Shown here: piece by piece, positions 4,567 through 44,241 of the stretch
Numbering within the stretch: the first letter of the stretch is position 1
How the letters are laid out: each line of letters begins with the position of its first letter
Assembly (NCBI GenBank): GCA_938048165.1
Contig: CALIBP010000041.1
Span: 1 to 48,912 of the forward strand
Source of the DNA: an uncultured Alphaproteobacteria bacterium
GTDB taxonomy: Bacteria; Pseudomonadota; Alphaproteobacteria; MPNO01; UBA2964
Reading direction: 5' to 3'
DNA length: 48,912 nucleotides
Translations under genes and position numbers: made by a program
Notes under the pieces: generated by a model
The model's input: only the letters and a program-made list of their open reading frames with translations
Databases searched by the model: none
What the model was told of the DNA's origin: nothing

Positions 4567-5999
4567 CCGACATTCTCTGGACTAGAGATTCCGTATGCGC
4601 TGCGACCAGCGGCAGCGGCAGTGTTGATTGGTCCGCGACCGGCGTTTCTATCGACAGTCGAACTATTGAGAAAGGTGATCTGTTCATCGCCCTAAAAGGC
4701 CCGCGTGTGGATGGCCACGACCATGTCGTCCAAGCTCTTGATGACGGCGCCGCGGCAGTCCTGGTTGACCACCGGCCCGAGGGACTTCCAGACGATGCCC
4801 CGGTTATTGAAGTCCATGACACAATGACGGCCCTCAACGACTTAGGCAAAGCTGGCCGTGATCGCAGCACCGCAAAAATTATCGCCGTGACAGGCAGTGT
4901 CGGGAAAACCGGCACCAAGGATGCCCTCCGCAACGCATTGACATTGCAAGGAAAAACTAGCGCCAGTGCGCATAGCTACAATAACCATTGGGGCGTCCCG
5001 CTCTCTTTGGCCCGTATGCCCGCTGATGCAAAATACGGCGTTTTCGAGGTTGGTATGAACCATGCGGGGGAAATCACACCTCTTTCGCAAATGATCCGGC
5101 CAGATGTCGCCATCATCACGACGGTCGAACCCGCCCATATTGAATTTTTTGACTCGATCGAAGCCATCGCCGACGCTAAAGCCGAAATTTTTGCCGGCAT
5201 GGATGGTGGCACGGCTATTTTGAACCGCGACAATCCTCTTTTTGTTCGGATCGCAAAAGGAGCCAGACCACCAAACGTGTCGCGCACCCTGTCCTTCGGA
5301 GAAAATCCAGAGGCCGATGCGCGCCTCATTACACGAGTCGCTGATAGCTCCGGCAATAACGTCGAGGCCGTCATCTGCGGTCGCCGGATAGGCTATCGAC
5401 TTGGGCTACCCGGACAACACCTGGTTCAGAACAGCCTCGCTGTTTTAGCTGCCATTTGCGCAGTCGGGGCTGACGTTGCCGCTGCTGCCAAGACCTTGAG
5501 TGAGCTTACCCCAATCGCAGGACGCGGCGCCCGGCGAACCATTAAATTCGCCGATGGCAGCTTCACGATTATCGATGAAAGCTACAACGCTAACCCTGCC
5601 TCTATGCGGGCGGCGATGGAAACTCTCGCTGCGATGCGACCAGAACCCTGTGCCAAACGAGTTGCCGTTCTCGGTGACATGCGCGAGTTGGGCAAGAATT
5701 CGCGGGACTATCACCTCGCTCTAGCTGATGTACTTGTTCAGAACGGCATCGATAAGGTTTTTGCCTGTGGCGAACATATGGCAGCCATGTTCGATGCCAT
5801 CCCACCCGAGATGAGAGGTGGCTATAGCGAGTCAGCGGAGGAGCTTGGGCAGGTTGTCGCCACCCAAGTTCGGGCTGGCGATGTGGTCACTGTAAAAGGA
5901 TCTCTCGCCAGCGGCATGAAAACCGTCGTCGACCAGCTGAGCGCCCTAGAGACAAAAGCGGCCCCGGAACCGGGACCAGCATTAAACGGGGCCGCATAG
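4563..5999 (+). CDS. murF: UDP-MurNAc-tripeptide:D-Ala-D-Ala ligase MurF
   Basis: MurF adds the D-Ala-D-Ala dipeptide to complete the UDP-MurNAc-pentapeptide. The three Mur-ligase domains are recognisable: an N-terminal substrate domain ([16 protein letters not shown]), the central ATPase with P-loop [14 protein letters not shown] near residue 103, and the C-terminal domain with [11 protein letters not shown] near residue 337 and [10 protein letters not shown]. Its 478 residues are normal for the family. Its ATG shares bases with the murE TGA, and mraY starts two bases after its stop. Confidence 0.95.
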
Positions 6000-37681: not shown

Positions 37682-37709
37682 TTGACGTTCAAATAACGTC
37701 AGTCATAAT
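37682..37709 (+). promoter_or_regulatory. Promoter of the TPP-riboswitch operon
   Basis: TTGACG (37682-37687) and CATAAT (37704-37709) are 16 bases apart and each matches the sigma70 consensus at five of six positions. Transcription would start about seven bases later, just ahead of the aptamer. A perfect inverted repeat, TGACGTT (37683-37689) and AACGTCA (37695-37701), overlaps the -35, so a repressor may act here in addition to the riboswitch. Confidence 0.6.
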
Positions 37710-37720
37710 AAATCCACTTG

Positions 37721-37829
37721 TTCCCAGGGGAGCCTCGTTAGGAGGCTGAGATCCCGCCAGCATTACCACTCACGGTGCTGCAACGCGGAGACCCTTCGAA
37801 CCTGATCCGGGTTATGCCGGCGTAGGGAA
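37721..37829 (+). promoter_or_regulatory. TPP riboswitch (thi box)
   Basis: The RNA aptamer that binds thiamin pyrophosphate is clearly present. TTCCC (37721-37725) pairs with GGGAA (37825-37829) as P1. AGCCTC/GAGGCT forms the next hairpin and ends in the invariant CUGAGA (37746-37751). CCGC/GCGG and CAGCA/TGCTG form the variable arm. The second conserved half reads ACCCTTCGAACC then TGATCCGGGT and ATGCCGGCGTAGGGA up to 37828. The downstream gene starts 88 bases later. CATCC (37856-37860) can pair with GGATG (37905-37909) over the ribosome binding site, which suggests translational control; a weak stem before TTTTT at about 37892 leaves early termination possible. Confidence 0.95.
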
Positions 37830-37916
37830 AGGGAAATCGTGCTTGTTACCCCCTTCATCCCTGCATTTTTGGCAACCGGATTCAGGCCGTGTTTTTGCTC
37901 GTGAGGATGTCTGTTT

Positions 37917-38996
37917 GTGACCGAGGCGCAGATCATTGAGACCCTACTCGATTTCATCGCTGCCGATAGCACCAGTGACGATCAATTCAATGCGCTCGCG
38001 TTGCAGATATTTGCCTATCAATTCGAAAATAACGTCCCCTATCAGCGCTTCTGCCGCCAGCGCGAAAAAACACCGCGAACCGTACAGAACTGGCGGAGCA
38101 TTCCTGCAGTTCCGATCAATGGCTACAAAGATCTAACACTCAGCTGTTGTGACCCCGAATCCGCAGAGCGGATTTTCATGACCAGCGGTACGACTAAAGA
38201 CGGAGTCCGGGGAAAATGTCATCACCCATCACTGTCGGTCTACGACGCCTCGATGATTACGGCTTTTCGCCAACGCTTTATGCAGGAACACGCCTCGCTG
38301 CGGATGGGCATCCTGTTTTCAACAGAACAGACAATGCCCAATTCTTCGCTGGCGCATTATTTGGCTTTAGCGCTCGATAAGTTCGGGTCAGACGGCAGCC
38401 GCTATTTTTTCAATGATGGCGGGCTGGATAGTGAACAGCTCTTTGCGGAACTGGAGCGTGCCGTACAAACTGGCGAACCCTATGCCCTGCTTGGTGCCAG
38501 TTTCAGTTTTGTTCATGTGATGGACGAGATGGACCGTCTCGGCAAAACTGTTTCGCTACCGGAAGGCAGCAGAATCCTCGATACCGGTGGCTTTAAGGGC
38601 CAGTCACGCGAACTGGAGCTCGATGAGTTTTATGATCTCCTCGAAGCCCGTTTTGGTGTTCCGCGGGGTCAATGCATCAATATGTATGGCATGACCGAAC
38701 TCAGCACGGAGTTTTACGACTGGGGCAACGCCACCTGCCCTTCCGTTAAATCCGGACCCCACTGGATACGCAGCCAAATCGTCAATCCGTTGACGGGCGA
38801 AGAACTGCCGAAAGGAGAAAAAGGCGTTCTGGTTCATTGCGACCTCGCCCATTTTAATTGTGTCTCGTCAATCCTCACTGAAGATGCCGGTATCGAAGTC
38901 GATGACGGTTTCCTGTTGCTCGGGCGTGCCGAGGGTGCCGAAGCCAAAGGCTGCTCGATGGCGGTCGATGAGTTCCTGAAAGCAGCGCAGGGGTAA
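37917..38996 (+). CDS. LuxE-like acyl-protein synthetase
   Basis: This 359-residue protein belongs to the LuxE family, which activates a carboxylic acid with ATP and holds it as a thioester before passing it to the LuxC reductase. The adenylate-forming loop FMTSGTTKDGVRG lies near residue 89, with INMYGMTELS near 261. Cys346, 13 residues from the C-terminus, matches the position of the acylated cysteine of Vibrio LuxE. The start is GTG 37917 with GAGGA nine bases upstream; no in-frame ATG upstream suits. It is the first gene after the TPP riboswitch and is followed four bases later by the LuxC-like gene. The substrate is unknown; context points to a thiamin-related acid. Confidence 0.85.
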   Translation: MTEAQIIETLLDFIAADSTSDDQFNALALQIFAYQFENNVPYQRFCRQREKTPRTVQNWRSIPAVPINGYKDLTLSCCDPESAERIFMTSGTTKDGVRGKCHHPSLSVYDASMITAFRQRFMQEHASLRMGILFSTEQTMPNSSLAHYLALALDKFGSDGSRYFFNDGGLDSEQLFAELERAVQTGEPYALLGASFSFVHVMDEMDRLGKTVSLPEGSRILDTGGFKGQSRELELDEFYDLLEARFGVPRGQCINMYGMTELSTEFYDWGNATCPSVKSGPHWIRSQIVNPLTGEELPKGEKGVLVHCDLAHFNCVSSILTEDAGIEVDDGFLLLGRAEGAEAKGCSMAVDEFLKAAQG

Positions 38997-39000
38997 ATAG

Positions 39001-40452
39001 ATGTCACTCAAAGCAGGATATCTTCCAGGTTTGCAAGACGACGATGTCGAATGGCAAACGCTATCCTATGAGCGGGACGGCCCGGCGATAGAGGTATCGG
39101 TTCCGCTGCTCAGTCACCGGCAAATGAAAGCTCTGTCCGGACGTATTAAAGAGGCTAGCCAACGTCACCTGAAACCAATGGCGGTCTCTGACATTGCAGC
39201 AACGATAGATACCGTCATTGCTAGGCTTTTGGACCGCAGCGACCCCTACCGTGAACAGGCCGAAGAATATCTCCCCAAAATCACCGGTTATGATGCCGAA
39301 ATGGTGAGGTTGGGCCTGACAGGCTATCTCAAGACATTTCGACTGTCGGAGCTTAACCGGTTTCTTGCCGAGGATTTCGTCAATCCAAAAATACTCGATG
39401 AATTCCAACCTTTGCCCAAGGGTGGTTATGGTAAAGCCTACGGTCCCGATCTACTCGCTCATATCTGGGCCGGTAATGTTCCTGGTCTGCCCCTATGGAG
39501 CCTCATATCCGGCTTACTGGTAAAGGCCGGAAACATCGGCAAGGTCGCCAGCGCCGAGCCCCTCATGGCGAGTTGGTTCGCAGAACTGGTAGCCGAGATC
39601 AACCCTACGCTTGGCCAATGCCTGGCCGTTGTGTGGTGGAAGGGCGGTGACATAGACCGCGAGCAGGCTTTGCTCAACCAGGCCGACCTGGTGGTTGCCT
39701 ATGGCAATAACGACACACTGCAGCAGGTTCGTGATCGGACGCCGATCACCACACGCTGTCTGACCTACAGCCATAAGGTCAGCTTTGGCATGATCTCGAG
39801 GGCCGCCCTCGACACTGGCAAGGCCTGGGCCGTCGCCCATCAGGCCGCCTATGACATCGTGCGCTATGACCAACAGGGCTGTTATTCGCCGCATCTATTC
39901 TTTGTCGAAAAGGGTGGTGCCGTCACGCCACAGGAATTCGCACAGTATATAGCCAACGAGCTCAATTGTTTTGAAGAGAAATTTCCGCGTCGTGCCCTGA
40001 GCATCGAAGAAGCTGGTGGGGTCGCAGCATGGCAGCAGACAGAAGAGATGAAGTCATTTTCTGATGAGAACAGTACCGTCATGAGTGATGCCAACGGAGC
40101 CTGGAGTGTCGCCTATTCCGAAGCAGAAGATAATTTGGCGCCCTCCGGCCTGAACCGGACGGCCAAGGTCATTTCTGTCGAGACTCTGGACGATGTCCCC
40201 GCCCGAATTTCCCCTTATAAAGCATTCCTCCAGACTGTCGGAATTGCCGCGGCACCGGAAGAATTACGTCGCCTGGCCGATTTGCTTGGAACGGTTGGAG
40301 TCACCCGGATCAGCGCTCTCGAGCATATGACATCTCCGGAAGCGGGATGGCATCATGATGGTCGCTTTAATCTGCTCGACCTTGTCACCATGACTGAAGT
40401 TGAACGATCAGCCGAGACCGCCGCCGAAGCTTTTTCGGATTATGTTGATTGA
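39001..40452 (+). CDS. LuxC-like acyl reductase
   Basis: This 483-residue protein is of the LuxC / acyl-CoA reductase family, related to aldehyde dehydrogenases. It reduces an enzyme-bound acyl thioester to an aldehyde with NADPH. The family region LAHIWAGNVPGLPLWSL lies near residue 152, and the active-site motif DQQGCYSPH places the nucleophile at Cys294, close to the Cys286 I recall for Vibrio LuxC. It is four bases downstream of the LuxE-like gene, so the pair forms a carboxylate reductase. No luxAB, luxD or luxG gene is nearby, so light production is not its role. Confidence 0.85.
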   Translation: MSLKAGYLPGLQDDDVEWQTLSYERDGPAIEVSVPLLSHRQMKALSGRIKEASQRHLKPMAVSDIAATIDTVIARLLDRSDPYREQAEEYLPKITGYDAEMVRLGLTGYLKTFRLSELNRFLAEDFVNPKILDEFQPLPKGGYGKAYGPDLLAHIWAGNVPGLPLWSLISGLLVKAGNIGKVASAEPLMASWFAELVAEINPTLGQCLAVVWWKGGDIDREQALLNQADLVVAYGNNDTLQQVRDRTPITTRCLTYSHKVSFGMISRAALDTGKAWAVAHQAAYDIVRYDQQGCYSPHLFFVEKGGAVTPQEFAQYIANELNCFEEKFPRRALSIEEAGGVAAWQQTEEMKSFSDENSTVMSDANGAWSVAYSEAEDNLAPSGLNRTAKVISVETLDDVPARISPYKAFLQTVGIAAAPEELRRLADLLGTVGVTRISALEHMTSPEAGWHHDGRFNLLDLVTMTEVERSAETAAEAFSDYVD

Positions 40453-40470
40453 GCTGATGGAATTGGGCCG

Positions 40471-41214
40471 ATGAGTTTCCTGACAGTCAACGAAGCGTCC
40501 TACTGCTATCAAGGCAATGAGGCCGTCGTCGACAGGGTGCAATGGTCAATTGCTCAGGGTGAATTTCATTGCCTGGTCGGTCGTAGCGGTTGCGGCAAGA
40601 CAACATTACTCAAGATTGCCGCAGGCCTTTTGCAACCGACCTCCGGTTCGATCTTTATCGATGATACTCAGGTTGTCGAACCCAGCGATCAGGTCGGCTT
40701 CGTGTTTCAGGCCCCGACCCTGCTCGAATGGCTACCCGTCACTGACAATGTATTGCTACCTATCTCTCTGAAACGGCGGGTAACAGCCAAAGACTATACC
40801 CGCGCCGCAGAACTTCTGGAGTTAGTCGGGCTGGGCAGCTTCACCAAACGCCATCCACAAGAGCTGTCGGGCGGACAGCAAAGCCGGGTGGCCATCGCCC
40901 GCGCGCTGATCAGGGAGCCAGCATTCCTGATGCTCGATGAACCGTTTGCGGCGCTCGACGCGATTACCCGGGCCGAGCTGCAGGATGATTTGCTGCGCCT
41001 GTGCGAACACCAAAAGACCACGGTCCTGTTTGTGACCCACGATATCGCGGAAGCCGCTTATCTGGGAGATTTCGTAACCGTTATGTCTCAGGGCGAACTC
41101 CAACAAGCTATCCCTATTGATCTCGCGAAACCGCGGGCACCCGAAATTCGTTATGACAGTACGTTTAACGCGCTATGTCTCAAAATCCGGAAAACCATGG
41201 ATGGTACGGCATGA
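40471..41214 (+). CDS. ABC importer ATPase (NitT/TauT type)
   Basis: This 247-residue ATP-binding subunit powers the importer formed with the next two genes. Walker A is GRSGCGKTT at 37-45, the Q-loop is Gln80 (FVFQAP), the signature is LSGGQ at 132-136, Walker B is FLMLDE at 152-157, and the switch histidine is His190 (VTHD). It is closest to the nitrate/taurine/thiamin-precursor family (including ThiZ). The permease ATG overlaps its TGA. Control by a TPP riboswitch suggests a thiamin-related substrate. Confidence 0.93.
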   Translation: MSFLTVNEASYCYQGNEAVVDRVQWSIAQGEFHCLVGRSGCGKTTLLKIAAGLLQPTSGSIFIDDTQVVEPSDQVGFVFQAPTLLEWLPVTDNVLLPISLKRRVTAKDYTRAAELLELVGLGSFTKRHPQELSGGQQSRVAIARALIREPAFLMLDEPFAALDAITRAELQDDLLRLCEHQKTTVLFVTHDIAEAAYLGDFVTVMSQGELQQAIPIDLAKPRAPEIRYDSTFNALCLKIRKTMDGTA

Positions 41215-41969
41215 GTATCCGGATTTATTCCTTTTTTCTGCTCATAGCCCTGCTCGTTGGGTGGGAAGTGATTTGCAGGCTGTTAGGCATTTCGGCATTG
41301 GTGATCCCGACCCCTACTGCAGTCCTGGAAGCCTTATGGAGCACACTGGAAAGCGGCTATTTGTGGCCGCATATATGGATCACAACAGCAGAAATGGTGC
41401 TTGGGCTCGCCTTGGGCTGCGGTATCGGCTTTGTCTGCGGCATCATTCTTGGCGAGACCGAATTTCTCAGGCGATTGCTCTACCCCTACATCATCGCCAG
41501 CCAGGTTGTCCCAAAACTGGCTCTTGGGCCTCTCTTTATCGTCTGGTTCGGGTTTGGCATGACGTCCACGGTCGTCATCACAGCTTTGATTTGCTTTTTT
41601 CCGTTACTGGAAAACACCCTGACCGGCATCCACCATATCGATCCGCAAAAGCGGGAGCTGTTTCGCATGCTGCGGGCCAGCCGAATGCAAACGCTGTTCC
41701 GGCTCAAAATCCCCTCTGGATTGCCGGTGATCATGGCCGGTGTCCGCGTCGCCGTTGTCCTGGCACTGGTCGGCGCCGTCGTCGGTGAGTTTATCGGTGG
41801 CCGGGAAGGCCTCGGCGCCGCCATTATTGCCGCACAGGGAATGATGGATTCAACCCTGATGTTCGCGCTCTTCATCGTCATCACCTTCCTTGGGATGATT
41901 TTTTATCAAGCAGCTATCTGGTCGGAGCGTTGGTTACTCCGTCGCCATATTAAAGGAAAAACACAATGA
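41211..41969 (+). CDS. ABC importer permease (NitT/TauT type)
   Basis: This is a 252-residue inner-membrane subunit with about six helices. The cytoplasmic EAA loop, which docks the ATPase, is seen around HIDPQKRELFRMLRASRMQT (residues about 141-160). PKLALGPLFIVWFG and VGEFIGGREGLGAAI are typical of the TauC/SsuC/ThiX group. A start at 41175 is also open, but the ATG at 41211 overlaps the ATPase stop as ATGA and removes a hydrophilic tail, so I prefer it. The binding-protein ATG again overlaps its stop. Confidence 0.93.
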   Translation: MSIRIYSFFLLIALLVGWEVICRLLGISALVIPTPTAVLEALWSTLESGYLWPHIWITTAEMVLGLALGCGIGFVCGIILGETEFLRRLLYPYIIASQVVPKLALGPLFIVWFGFGMTSTVVITALICFFPLLENTLTGIHHIDPQKRELFRMLRASRMQTLFRLKIPSGLPVIMAGVRVAVVLALVGAVVGEFIGGREGLGAAIIAAQGMMDSTLMFALFIVITFLGMIFYQAAIWSERWLLRRHIKGKTQ

Positions 41970-42934
41970 AATTTTTGGGAATTTTGACAGCCTTATCGCT
42001 GACTGCCAGCATCGCTCAGGCGCAAAAATTGGACAGCTTTACCGTCGCAGGGTGGAGCAAACCCATCAGCGAAATTACCAATCTGCTTGCCGAACCCGAT
42101 AAGGGTTTCTTCAAAGCCAGGGGGATCAAGCTGGGATACGTACCGGGAACCGGTGGGGGTTCTGCTATTCGGAATATGCTAACCGGCAAGGCCGACGTGG
42201 CCTTTACGGACCCAGCCTCATTTTATCAGGCGCTGGACAAAGGCGAGAAGCTTGTTGCGATCTACAATATTTATCCGCAGAACGTCTTTAATGTCGTATC
42301 GCCCAAAGACCGCAACATCACCAAGCCATCAGATCTTAAAGGTAAAAAGATCGGCGTTTACAGCCTGTCCAGCGGAACCCGCCAAAACTTGCAGGTCCTG
42401 CTTCATCAAGTCGGCCTAAAGGAATCTGACGTCACCATACAGGTAACCGGGCTTTTGAACTTTGCCCCCGTAATCCAGGGCCAGGTCGATGCAACAGCGG
42501 CAACGGATACCGGCCTGTTTGTCGGTAAGTTAAAAGGCCTCAAAGAGGTAAACGTTATTGAGGTTAGAGACTACCTCAACGTGCCGAGCGACATGTTTGT
42601 CGTCACTGAGAAGACCTACCAGACGAAAAAGCCGCTCCTGAAGCGCTTCCTTGCCGCCTATCGCGACAGCGCAGCCTGGATGATCAAGAATCCAAAAGAG
42701 GCCGCCAAGATTGCCAAAAAACGGGCTATTAATGGCCGTAATGAAGCCATAAATCTTGAGATAATCAAGATCCGGAACATTTCATCGGTTTCGCCGACTA
42801 CAGCAAAAAAGGGATTGGGCGCCTTTGACCTTGATTTGCTGCAAAAGGGCGCCAATACCTTTAAACAGCTGGGATTGATCAAAAAGGACATCGACATTTC
42901 CAGTGTCGTAAAATCGGATTTAATCCCTAAATAA
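41966..42934 (+). CDS. Periplasmic substrate-binding protein (NMT1/TauA family)
   Basis: This 322-residue protein has a signal peptide (about residues 1-19, ending SIAQA) with no lipobox cysteine, so it should be free in the periplasm. The body is a type II periplasmic binding fold of the NMT1/THI5-TauA family: GWSKPISEITNLLAEPDKG, GKADVAFTDPASFYQAL and GVYSLSSGTRQNLQVLL are recognisable. The CCCFC signature of the yeast Thi5 suicide enzyme is absent, so it binds and does not synthesise. Ligand preference cannot be read from the sequence; riboswitch control argues for a thiamin precursor or breakdown product. Confidence 0.9.
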   Translation: MKFLGILTALSLTASIAQAQKLDSFTVAGWSKPISEITNLLAEPDKGFFKARGIKLGYVPGTGGGSAIRNMLTGKADVAFTDPASFYQALDKGEKLVAIYNIYPQNVFNVVSPKDRNITKPSDLKGKKIGVYSLSSGTRQNLQVLLHQVGLKESDVTIQVTGLLNFAPVIQGQVDATAATDTGLFVGKLKGLKEVNVIEVRDYLNVPSDMFVVTEKTYQTKKPLLKRFLAAYRDSAAWMIKNPKEAAKIAKKRAINGRNEAINLEIIKIRNISSVSPTTAKKGLGAFDLDLLQKGANTFKQLGLIKKDIDISSVVKSDLIPK

Positions 42935-42952
42935 ACCACCGGGTCTTCGCTG

Positions 42953-43720
42953 ATGAATTTTGACGGAAAAATTGTTCTGGTTACCGGTTCCAGCCGCGGC
43001 ATAGGCGCCGCCATTGCCAAGGCTTTTGCCGCTGAGGGAGCAACCGTCATCGTCAACTATGTCCAAAACGTGGACGCCGCCGATGACGTCGTCGCCGCCT
43101 GTAAAAAAGCGGGTGGCGACGCAATAGCCATTCAGGCAGACGTAACATCAGGCGATCAAATTCAGGCGCTGGTTGATCAAACTTTGATGGACTTTGCGAA
43201 AATAGATGTTGTCGTTAACAACGCCTTTAAACCCTACACTTTTGATCCCGATAATCGCAAACAGTTCTCAGAGCTGAACTGGCAGGATTATCAGGACCAG
43301 CTCGATGGTGCGCTGTTCTCGACCTACACAATGTGTCAGGCAGTCCTCCCTGCCCTCAAGAAACGGACCCAGGGCAGTATCATTAACATTGCGAGCGACC
43401 TCGTTGCCCGGCCCACGATCCCCTATCATGACTATACGACGGCGAAGTCAGCCTTGATCGGGTTCAGTCGCAACCTGGCGATGGAGCTCGGCCCGCTCGG
43501 TATACGCGTGAATTGTGTGGCACCTGGATTGGTGTATCCAACCGATGCCAGCCGCGAGACCAAGGAGCGCGTTAAAGAGATGATTATTGCGCAAACGCCA
43601 ATGCACCGCATTGCCTCCCCGGAAGACATTACTGGTCCTGTGATGTTCCTCGCTTCTGACTGGAGTCGTTTCATGACCGGCCAGACTCTTTATGTCGATG
43701 GCGGATTGGTGATGAAATGA
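42953..43720 (+). CDS. Short-chain dehydrogenase/reductase
   Basis: This 255-residue classical SDR resembles 3-oxoacyl-ACP reductases. The cofactor loop is TGSSRGIG at 11-18, the NNA motif is at 89-91, and the catalytic Ser148, Tyr161 and Lys165 (YTTAK) are intact. The C-terminal GQTLYVDGG is typical. It follows the binding protein by 18 bases and overlaps the next gene by four. In this operon it may reduce the aldehyde released by the LuxC-like enzyme to an alcohol; that is inference from gene order. Confidence 0.92.
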   Translation: MNFDGKIVLVTGSSRGIGAAIAKAFAAEGATVIVNYVQNVDAADDVVAACKKAGGDAIAIQADVTSGDQIQALVDQTLMDFAKIDVVVNNAFKPYTFDPDNRKQFSELNWQDYQDQLDGALFSTYTMCQAVLPALKKRTQGSIINIASDLVARPTIPYHDYTTAKSALIGFSRNLAMELGPLGIRVNCVAPGLVYPTDASRETKERVKEMIIAQTPMHRIASPEDITGPVMFLASDWSRFMTGQTLYVDGGLVMK

Positions 43721-44241
43721 GAATGTTTATGTATAAGACAATTCGGGTCTCCGCTACACTGGCCCTATTATTTGGCATACAGGCGGTTTCAAACCCTGCC
43801 AACGCTTTTTGCGTCGTCAACCTTTGGAAAGACACACTTCACGTAAAGCTGAAGACCTACAACCCCCTGGGAAATTTTCACCGGATGATAAAATCCGGGG
43901 ACAAAGCCTGTTGCGAATGGTTTGACCGAAACTGCAATCCCAGCGCATCGCGTGACGGCACCATTGTCTTTGATATTCGGAGCCGAAACAAAAAGCCGCG
44001 AGAACTATATTGTTCGACAGGCTTGCAAAAACGCGTTGTTGGCGTCGGCGGCGGTACGATCACCGTTCGGGAAAATATTTCCAAGATCGGTGGCCTGGAA
44101 TGCGACAGCCGAGACTATCTGGCCCGCCCTGTCACAGCGACATTACCAGCCAATAGCTATGGTGTTCCGATGTTCAAACTTCCAGACCAGGTCCCCCCTG
44201 TTGGGCCAAGTCTGCATGATCAAAACGCCGCCCCTCAATAG
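43717..44241 (+). CDS. Secreted cysteine-rich protein of unknown function
   Basis: I do not recognise this 174-residue protein. An N-terminal signal peptide (about residues 1-30, ending NANA-like PANA) precedes a mature part that starts with FCVVNLW. It has seven cysteines after the cleavage site, including a CC pair at about 65-66, which suggests disulfide bonds in the periplasm. The C-terminal 25 residues are proline-rich. It overlaps the SDR stop by four bases (ATGA) and is the last gene of the TPP-riboswitch operon, so it is probably co-regulated. Its 3' end is 25 bases from the convergent metH stop. Confidence 0.75.
   Translation: MRMFMYKTIRVSATLALLFGIQAVSNPANAFCVVNLWKDTLHVKLKTYNPLGNFHRMIKSGDKACCEWFDRNCNPSASRDGTIVFDIRSRNKKPRELYCSTGLQKRVVGVGGGTITVRENISKIGGLECDSRDYLARPVTATLPANSYGVPMFKLPDQVPPVGPSLHDQNAAPQ

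Follow-up and report, generated by a model that had tools for sequence, protein, structure and literature searches.

A TPP riboswitch and a conserved luxE-luxC-SDR core

We analysed a 48,912-nucleotide stretch of DNA from an uncultured alphaproteobacterium (contig CALIBP010000041.1, assembly GCA_938048165.1; hereafter the window). In this window, a thiamin pyrophosphate (TPP) riboswitch precedes genes for a LuxE-like and a LuxC-like protein, an importer of the ATP-binding cassette (ABC) type and a reductase of the short-chain dehydrogenase/reductase (SDR) family. The riboswitch aptamer (THI element) was located on the + strand at positions 37716 to 37846, 70 nucleotides before luxE. It matched Rfam model RF00059 over its full length (1-105) with a score of 72.3 bits (E 2e-12; gathering score 54.3) and was the sole TPP riboswitch in the window. 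Folding of the whole leader gave a z of -1.4. From its family, the aptamer is expected to bind TPP and to repress the downstream genes.

Seven open reading frames (ORFs) follow on the + strand. The first two encode the LuxE-like acyl-AMP ligase / acyl-protein synthetase (37917 to 38996; PF04443, 4e-14) and the LuxC-like acyl-thioester reductase (39001 to 40452; PF05893, 1e-88). The importer comprises a ThiZ-like ATPase (40471 to 41214; PF00005, 8e-34), syntenic in most related loci, a ThiX-like permease (about 41211 to 41969; PF00528, 6e-29) with an ATGA overlap at each end, and a ThiY-like substrate-binding protein of the NMT1/THI5 family (41966 to 42934; PF09084, 2e-48). The SDR gene (42953 to 43720; PF13561, 1e-61; NF006393 above its cut-off) is followed by a gene for a secreted Cys-rich protein (43717 to 44241) having no Pfam or NCBIfam match. 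Its start overlaps the SDR stop by ATGA. Read from the sequence, the six junctions are, in order, 4, 18, ATGA, ATGA, 18 and ATGA. The original prediction, made from the letters alone, had described a thi-box aptamer and seven packed genes with four of six junctions being 4-base gaps or ATGA overlaps; both descriptions were borne out, six of the genes having Pfam matches.

The genome of the window (2.9 Mb assembled, 68% complete) contains two TPP riboswitches. The second lies upstream of thiO-thiS-thiG-thiE. To look at recurrence, the window LuxC was searched against one genome per species, giving 80 loci (54-87% identity) that span Alpha-, Beta- and Gammaproteobacteria, Bacilli and Clostridia, and thus two phyla. 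Riboswitches were counted with a covariance model made from eight TPP aptamers. A TPP riboswitch was found upstream of luxE in 76 of the 80 loci, and Rfam's own TPP model agreed in the Firmicutes loci. The spacing to luxE ranged from 53 to 277 nucleotides (median 75), four loci with an inserted thiD excepted. Two additional matches were observed elsewhere, before thiC in L026 and at the end of L049. The scan gave no riboswitch in L017, L021, L028 (a cut locus) and L053, and relaxed thresholds still revealed none upstream of luxE in L017, L053, L114 and L115. With no more than two TPP riboswitches in the whole genome, and one just upstream of luxE in 76 of the 80 loci, the pairing of riboswitch and operon is beyond chance. 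The original prediction had named failure to recur in other genomes as grounds for abandoning the idea; the recurrence observed here strongly supports the link to thiamin.

The order luxE, luxC, SDR is kept in 74 of the 80 loci, and 63 of these 74 also have the binding protein. The three ABC genes are missing in sister species of the window, where luxE, luxC, SDR and the riboswitch are kept (L003-L009), and likewise in L011-L013 and L077. Pantoea megaplasmids also carry TPP-luxE-luxC-SDR without an importer. In Lactobacillus plasmids, the riboswitch is followed by an NCS2 permease of the xanthine/uracil type, which replaces the ABC genes, and then by luxE, luxC and SDR. In Niallia taxi (L148), tandem TPP riboswitches (5540-5648 and 5727-5837) precede ThiW, an NCS2 permease, luxE, luxC and SDR. 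The best NCBIfam matches of the NCS2 permeases were xanthine permease and NCS2 nucleobase symporters. All fell below the curated cut-offs, so that nucleobase-like substrates are suggested by family only. On a quick LuxC tree, at least four changes in importer presence are required. Overall, luxE-luxC-SDR forms the conserved core, and importers are interchangeable around it: a ThiXYZ-like ABC system, an NCS2 nucleobase permease or no importer at all. Since the importer is dispensable, the coupling to an ABC importer put forward in the original prediction describes only part of the family. The seven-gene unit was also narrowed: luxE-luxC-SDR and the riboswitch are conserved, whereas the secreted Cys-rich protein, limited among the 80 loci to the window's genus (L003-L007), stands outside the conserved unit and is probably outside the pathway.

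Several observations were made alongside. The TPP-NCS2-luxE-luxC-SDR cassette was found with identical protein accessions on plasmids of two food-origin lactobacilli (L146, L147), and is a putative mobile vitamin-salvage module. TPP riboswitches also stand before branched-chain-amino-acid-type ABC importers with a periplasmic binding protein (L126 1155-8366, - strand; L141 13256-17650, - strand, with Peripla_BP_6), possibly another importer of thiamin or of a precursor. In L126, the importer is followed by an SDR and a 475-residue protein without family. Luciferase-like flavin monooxygenases (SfnG/RutA-like; NtaA/DmoA-type) adjoin the TPP-luxE operon in two lineages (L118 2755-3855, - strand; L117 2066-3262, - strand; L140 5803-7125, + strand) and could act on a precursor. 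All-against-all clustering was used to look for recurrent extra operon genes; outside the core, the listed clusters consisted almost entirely of shadow ORFs and of lineage neighbours.

Enzymes and binding protein

The C-terminal Cys346 of LuxE, within a KGCS motif, is invariant in 34 homologues. This motif aligned with the C-terminal KGCS of LuxE in the Photobacterium phosphoreum complex (7xc6). Similarly, Cys294 of LuxC, within YDQQGCYS, is invariant in 26 homologues, and LuxC aligned with LuxC of 7xc6, the YDQQ-C motif being common to both. In lux enzymes, the LuxC and LuxE cysteines carry the acyl group. Cys346 is presumed to be an acyl carrier. The AlphaFold model of LuxE (predicted local distance difference test, pLDDT, 91.7) was nearest to aryl-acid AMP ligases, PaaK among them, in a comparison for which 7xc6 offered just 118 residues of LuxE. 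The SDR is FabG-like with a YxxxK motif and is kept even in loci without ABC genes; it is predicted to perform the aldehyde-to-alcohol step. Because of the family memberships of LuxE, LuxC and SDR, a route from acid to acyl-AMP, thioester, aldehyde and alcohol is predicted, and this chemistry also fits the invariant catalytic cysteines. Neither protein reached the NCBIfam equivalog cut-offs for luminescence enzymes (LuxC, 102.3 versus 750 bits; LuxE, 57.8 versus 550 bits).

The modelled binding protein (pLDDT 89.9) has the overall ThiY fold. Its best PDB match was a ThiY that binds formylaminopyrimidine (FAMP) (3ix1, Z 31.6, root-mean-square deviation (rmsd) 2.8, 293 residues), in a near-tie with a thiamin-bound protein (4nmy, Z 30.6, rmsd 3.0, 291 residues). 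Thi5 (Z 26.9) and SsuA (Z 25.9) ranked behind. A ThiXYZ pyrimidine importer would be expected to bind FAMP or hydroxymethylpyrimidine (HMP). The gene set likewise has the ThiXYZ architecture, namely an NMT1/THI5 binding protein, ABC permease and ATPase under RF00059. In sequence, the binding protein does not group with canonical ThiY (24% identity to a relative's TPP-controlled ThiY), while the binding proteins of the operon family are 58-86% identical to that of the window; by these comparisons, it is a separate subfamily. In 33 of 34 family members residue 139 is Arg, whereas the ThiY of three relatives carries Glu there. If the residue, a putative ligand contact, does touch the ligand, such a change would fit a carboxylate.

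Pyrimidine or thiazole

Gene context was used to distinguish between the two halves of thiamin. In four loci, all betaproteobacterial (L037, L045, L047, L052), thiD stands between the riboswitch and luxE, and in three of them its stop is immediately followed by the ATG of luxE. Since these bacteria are related, the four insertions may reflect one event. TPP-thiC lies directly upstream of TPP-luxE-luxC-ABC-SDR in L026; L119 of genome G018 covers the same region of this contig. In ten operon genomes (G000, G007, G009, G010, G011, G014, G016, G017, G029, G030), the window's genus among them, thiG, thiE and thiD are accompanied by neither thiC nor thiM. These genomes come mostly from one family and are not independent; several are 96-99% complete and G017 is a single contig. 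Conversely, all 23 operon genomes with thiC also have thiG, and therefore a thiazole-only gap (thiC without thiG) was found in 0 of 39 genomes. Near-complete genomes of the window's genus have exactly two TPP riboswitches, at thiO-thiS-thiG-thiE and at the luxE operon, the gene content at both sites having been read in G017 and in the window's own genome. In three luxC-less genomes of the same order (G023, G024, G026), a TPP-controlled ThiXYZ-like importer and TenA are found instead. No TenA occurs in the operon; within the genus, most genomes with the operon have no true TenA, but G011 does. Taken together, this gene context indicates the pyrimidine half of thiamin, and this is the strongest step of the argument. 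The original prediction had left open a pyrimidine carboxylate or a thiazole-acetic acid and had called for this comparison of thiC, thiG and thiM; the genomes favour the former and argue against the latter.

Two observations concern other thiamin genes of these bacteria. In the window's family, each genome has two thiE paralogues (G000, G010, G011, G014, G017 and others), one below the NCBIfam cut-off and situated in the TPP-controlled thiO-thiS-thiG-thiE operon, the other elsewhere. In genomes G005 and G003, both without thiM, a TPP riboswitch stands before the gene of an APH-family phosphotransferase (PF01636, 369 residues; L124 4423-5602, + strand; L125 8222-8323, - strand), which is a candidate thiamin or thiazole kinase.

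What the sequences themselves show is a conserved operon with its riboswitch, invariant cysteines, genomes that have lost thiC, and genetic linkage to thiC and thiD; from these we infer a substrate, a direction and a series of catalytic steps. On balance, we consider it probable that this is a TPP-repressed salvage operon that takes up a pyrimidine carboxylate and reduces it to HMP at the expense of ATP and NAD(P)H. At low TPP, the operon would be expressed. The carboxylated pyrimidine would enter through the ThiXYZ-like ABC importer or, elsewhere, through the NCS2 nucleobase permease or an unlinked route. LuxE would activate the acid with ATP and hold the resulting thioester on its C-terminal cysteine. 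The acyl group would then be transferred to the cysteine of LuxC and reduced with NAD(P)H to the aldehyde, which the SDR would convert into HMP. Finally, ThiD would phosphorylate HMP and ThiE would join the product to the thiazole. The substrate is probably 4-amino-2-methylpyrimidine-5-carboxylate, a breakdown product of thiamin. Of all steps in the argument, the naming of this acid is the weakest.

Several results weigh against salvage of a pyrimidine acid. Five genomes (G004, G005, G006, G022, G025) have luxE-luxC-SDR and no thiC, thiG, thiM or clear Thi4. As this leaves them with no known source of thiazole, HMP alone would be insufficient unless there is an unknown one. Thi4 was considered as a hidden thiazole synthase in the thiG-less genomes, and gave only weak FAD-domain matches. 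In addition, no clear thiD was found in G025, and no recognisable TPP riboswitch before the operon in G004-G006. The same thiazole gap is present in G023 and G024, which have no luxC but the ThiXYZ-like importer and TenA; an unknown thiazole source may therefore exist in these families. In the sister species and the other members that have no importer, the acid must enter by a different route or be made inside the cell. The thiM-thiD-thiE genes downstream of SDR in Metabacillus do not discriminate between the two halves of thiamin. Finally, in a class-wide survey all five operon genomes were thiC-less as compared to about 67% of the class. Because some two thirds of the class also lack thiC, the survey alone is not significant, and co-occurrence of luxC with thiC loss at this level was not retained.

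Without an unknown thiazole source, the thiazole-gap operon genomes would be better fitted by repair at the level of thiamin itself, in which thiamin acetic acid, with an oxidised hydroxyethyl side chain, would be reduced to thiamin and then pyrophosphorylated. This accounts for operon genomes without thiC, thiG and thiM, and the ligand of 4nmy, which is among the two structures closest to the binding protein, is intact thiamin. However, such a repair would give no role to ThiD, whose gene is co-transcribed in four loci, or to the linkage with thiC. With it, the window's genus would have a TPP-controlled thiOSG-thiE operon but no source of pyrimidine for it, and an NCS2 nucleobase-type permease would be an odd importer for thiamin acetic acid. 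We therefore hold it to be unlikely. Salvage of the thiazole half, from 4-methylthiazole-5-acetic acid to hydroxyethylthiazole (HET), would use the same chemistry as proposed for the pyrimidine acid. It could explain thiM after SDR in Metabacillus and Ammoniphilus, as well as the thiazole transporter ThiW ahead of the genes in Niallia. Use of HET nevertheless requires ThiM, found in none of the 22 tested genomes of the window's order, and the window's genus has thiG. Considering also that thiC is always accompanied by thiG in the operon genomes and that the gene inserted in four loci is thiD and not thiM, this route appears quite improbable.

The other two explanations concern the source and the nature of the acid. 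Importer-less lineages might make the carboxylate internally, by oxidation or by an unknown biosynthesis, and the operon would then replace ThiC as the supply of HMP. In favour of this, the window's sister species and Pantoea keep the riboswitch and luxE-luxC-SDR without an importer, and near-complete genomes of the genus have no thiC. On the other hand, an importer may be unlinked or unrecognised, and the window and other relatives keep the ABC importer. A ThiC-independent supply of this kind is thus improbable. For the importer-less lineages themselves, conversion of an internal carboxylate into HMP by LuxE, LuxC and SDR, such that supposed HMP auxotrophs are not auxotrophic, seems rather improbable. 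As to fatty acids or other non-thiamin acids, with a riboswitch that is incidental or tied to a TPP-dependent pathway, they are suggested by the families and by their names (LuxC/LuxE, 'acyl-CoA reductase'). They fit poorly with the distance from the lux fatty-acid cut-offs, with the riboswitch in 76 of 80 loci and with the linkage to thiD, thiC, thiM, ThiW and a ThiY-like protein. We regard them as very improbable.

Comparison with known systems

Loss of thiC, causing HMP auxotrophy, is the commonest vitamin B1 auxotrophy reported in marine microbes (PMC11452348). The vitamers now considered are HMP, aminomethylpyrimidine (AmMP), FAMP, HET and carboxy-HET (cHET) (PMC10881298). If the reduction of a pyrimidine carboxylate to HMP is true, one more vitamer would be added to these, together with an enzyme set overlooked by genome-based auxotrophy predictions and a role in vitamin metabolism for the LuxC and LuxE families.

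In the openly licensed literature, no description was found of LuxC/LuxE with thiamin or a TPP riboswitch, subscription papers and regulon databases lying outside this search; the association may be listed there without comment. In its main text, the catalogue of TPP regulons by Sun et al. 2013 (PMC3766115) places TPP riboswitches before genes for thiamin synthesis and precursor transport and does not mention LuxC/LuxE. In all, two riboswitch surveys (in their main texts) and the HMP-PP riboswitch paper make no mention of the association. TPP-controlled precursor salvage is a known kind of system, whereas LuxE/LuxC chemistry is not known for such operons.

LuxC and LuxE of luminous bacteria, as in 7xc6, belong to the same Pfam families, are encoded by adjacent genes and share the YDQQ-C and KGCS motifs. 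The same logic, from acyl-AMP to thioester to aldehyde, is therefore expected. As compared to the luminescence operon, the operon in the window has no luxA, luxB or luxD, the order is luxE-luxC, a TPP riboswitch and an SDR are added, and both proteins miss the equivalog cut-offs. SAR11 bacteria face the same problem, being thiC-less marine bacteria in need of pyrimidine, and solve it with ThiV (PMC11452348), a sodium symporter that imports finished HMP and involves no reduction chemistry. The ThiXYZ and TenA salvage system (ThiY of Bacillus halodurans, 3ix1) likewise has a TPP-controlled importer of the NMT1/THI5 family and serves the pyrimidine branch. The operon in the window differs from it by a binding protein that diverges from ThiY in overall identity and at position 139, and by an importer whose partner is an acid reductase and not TenA.

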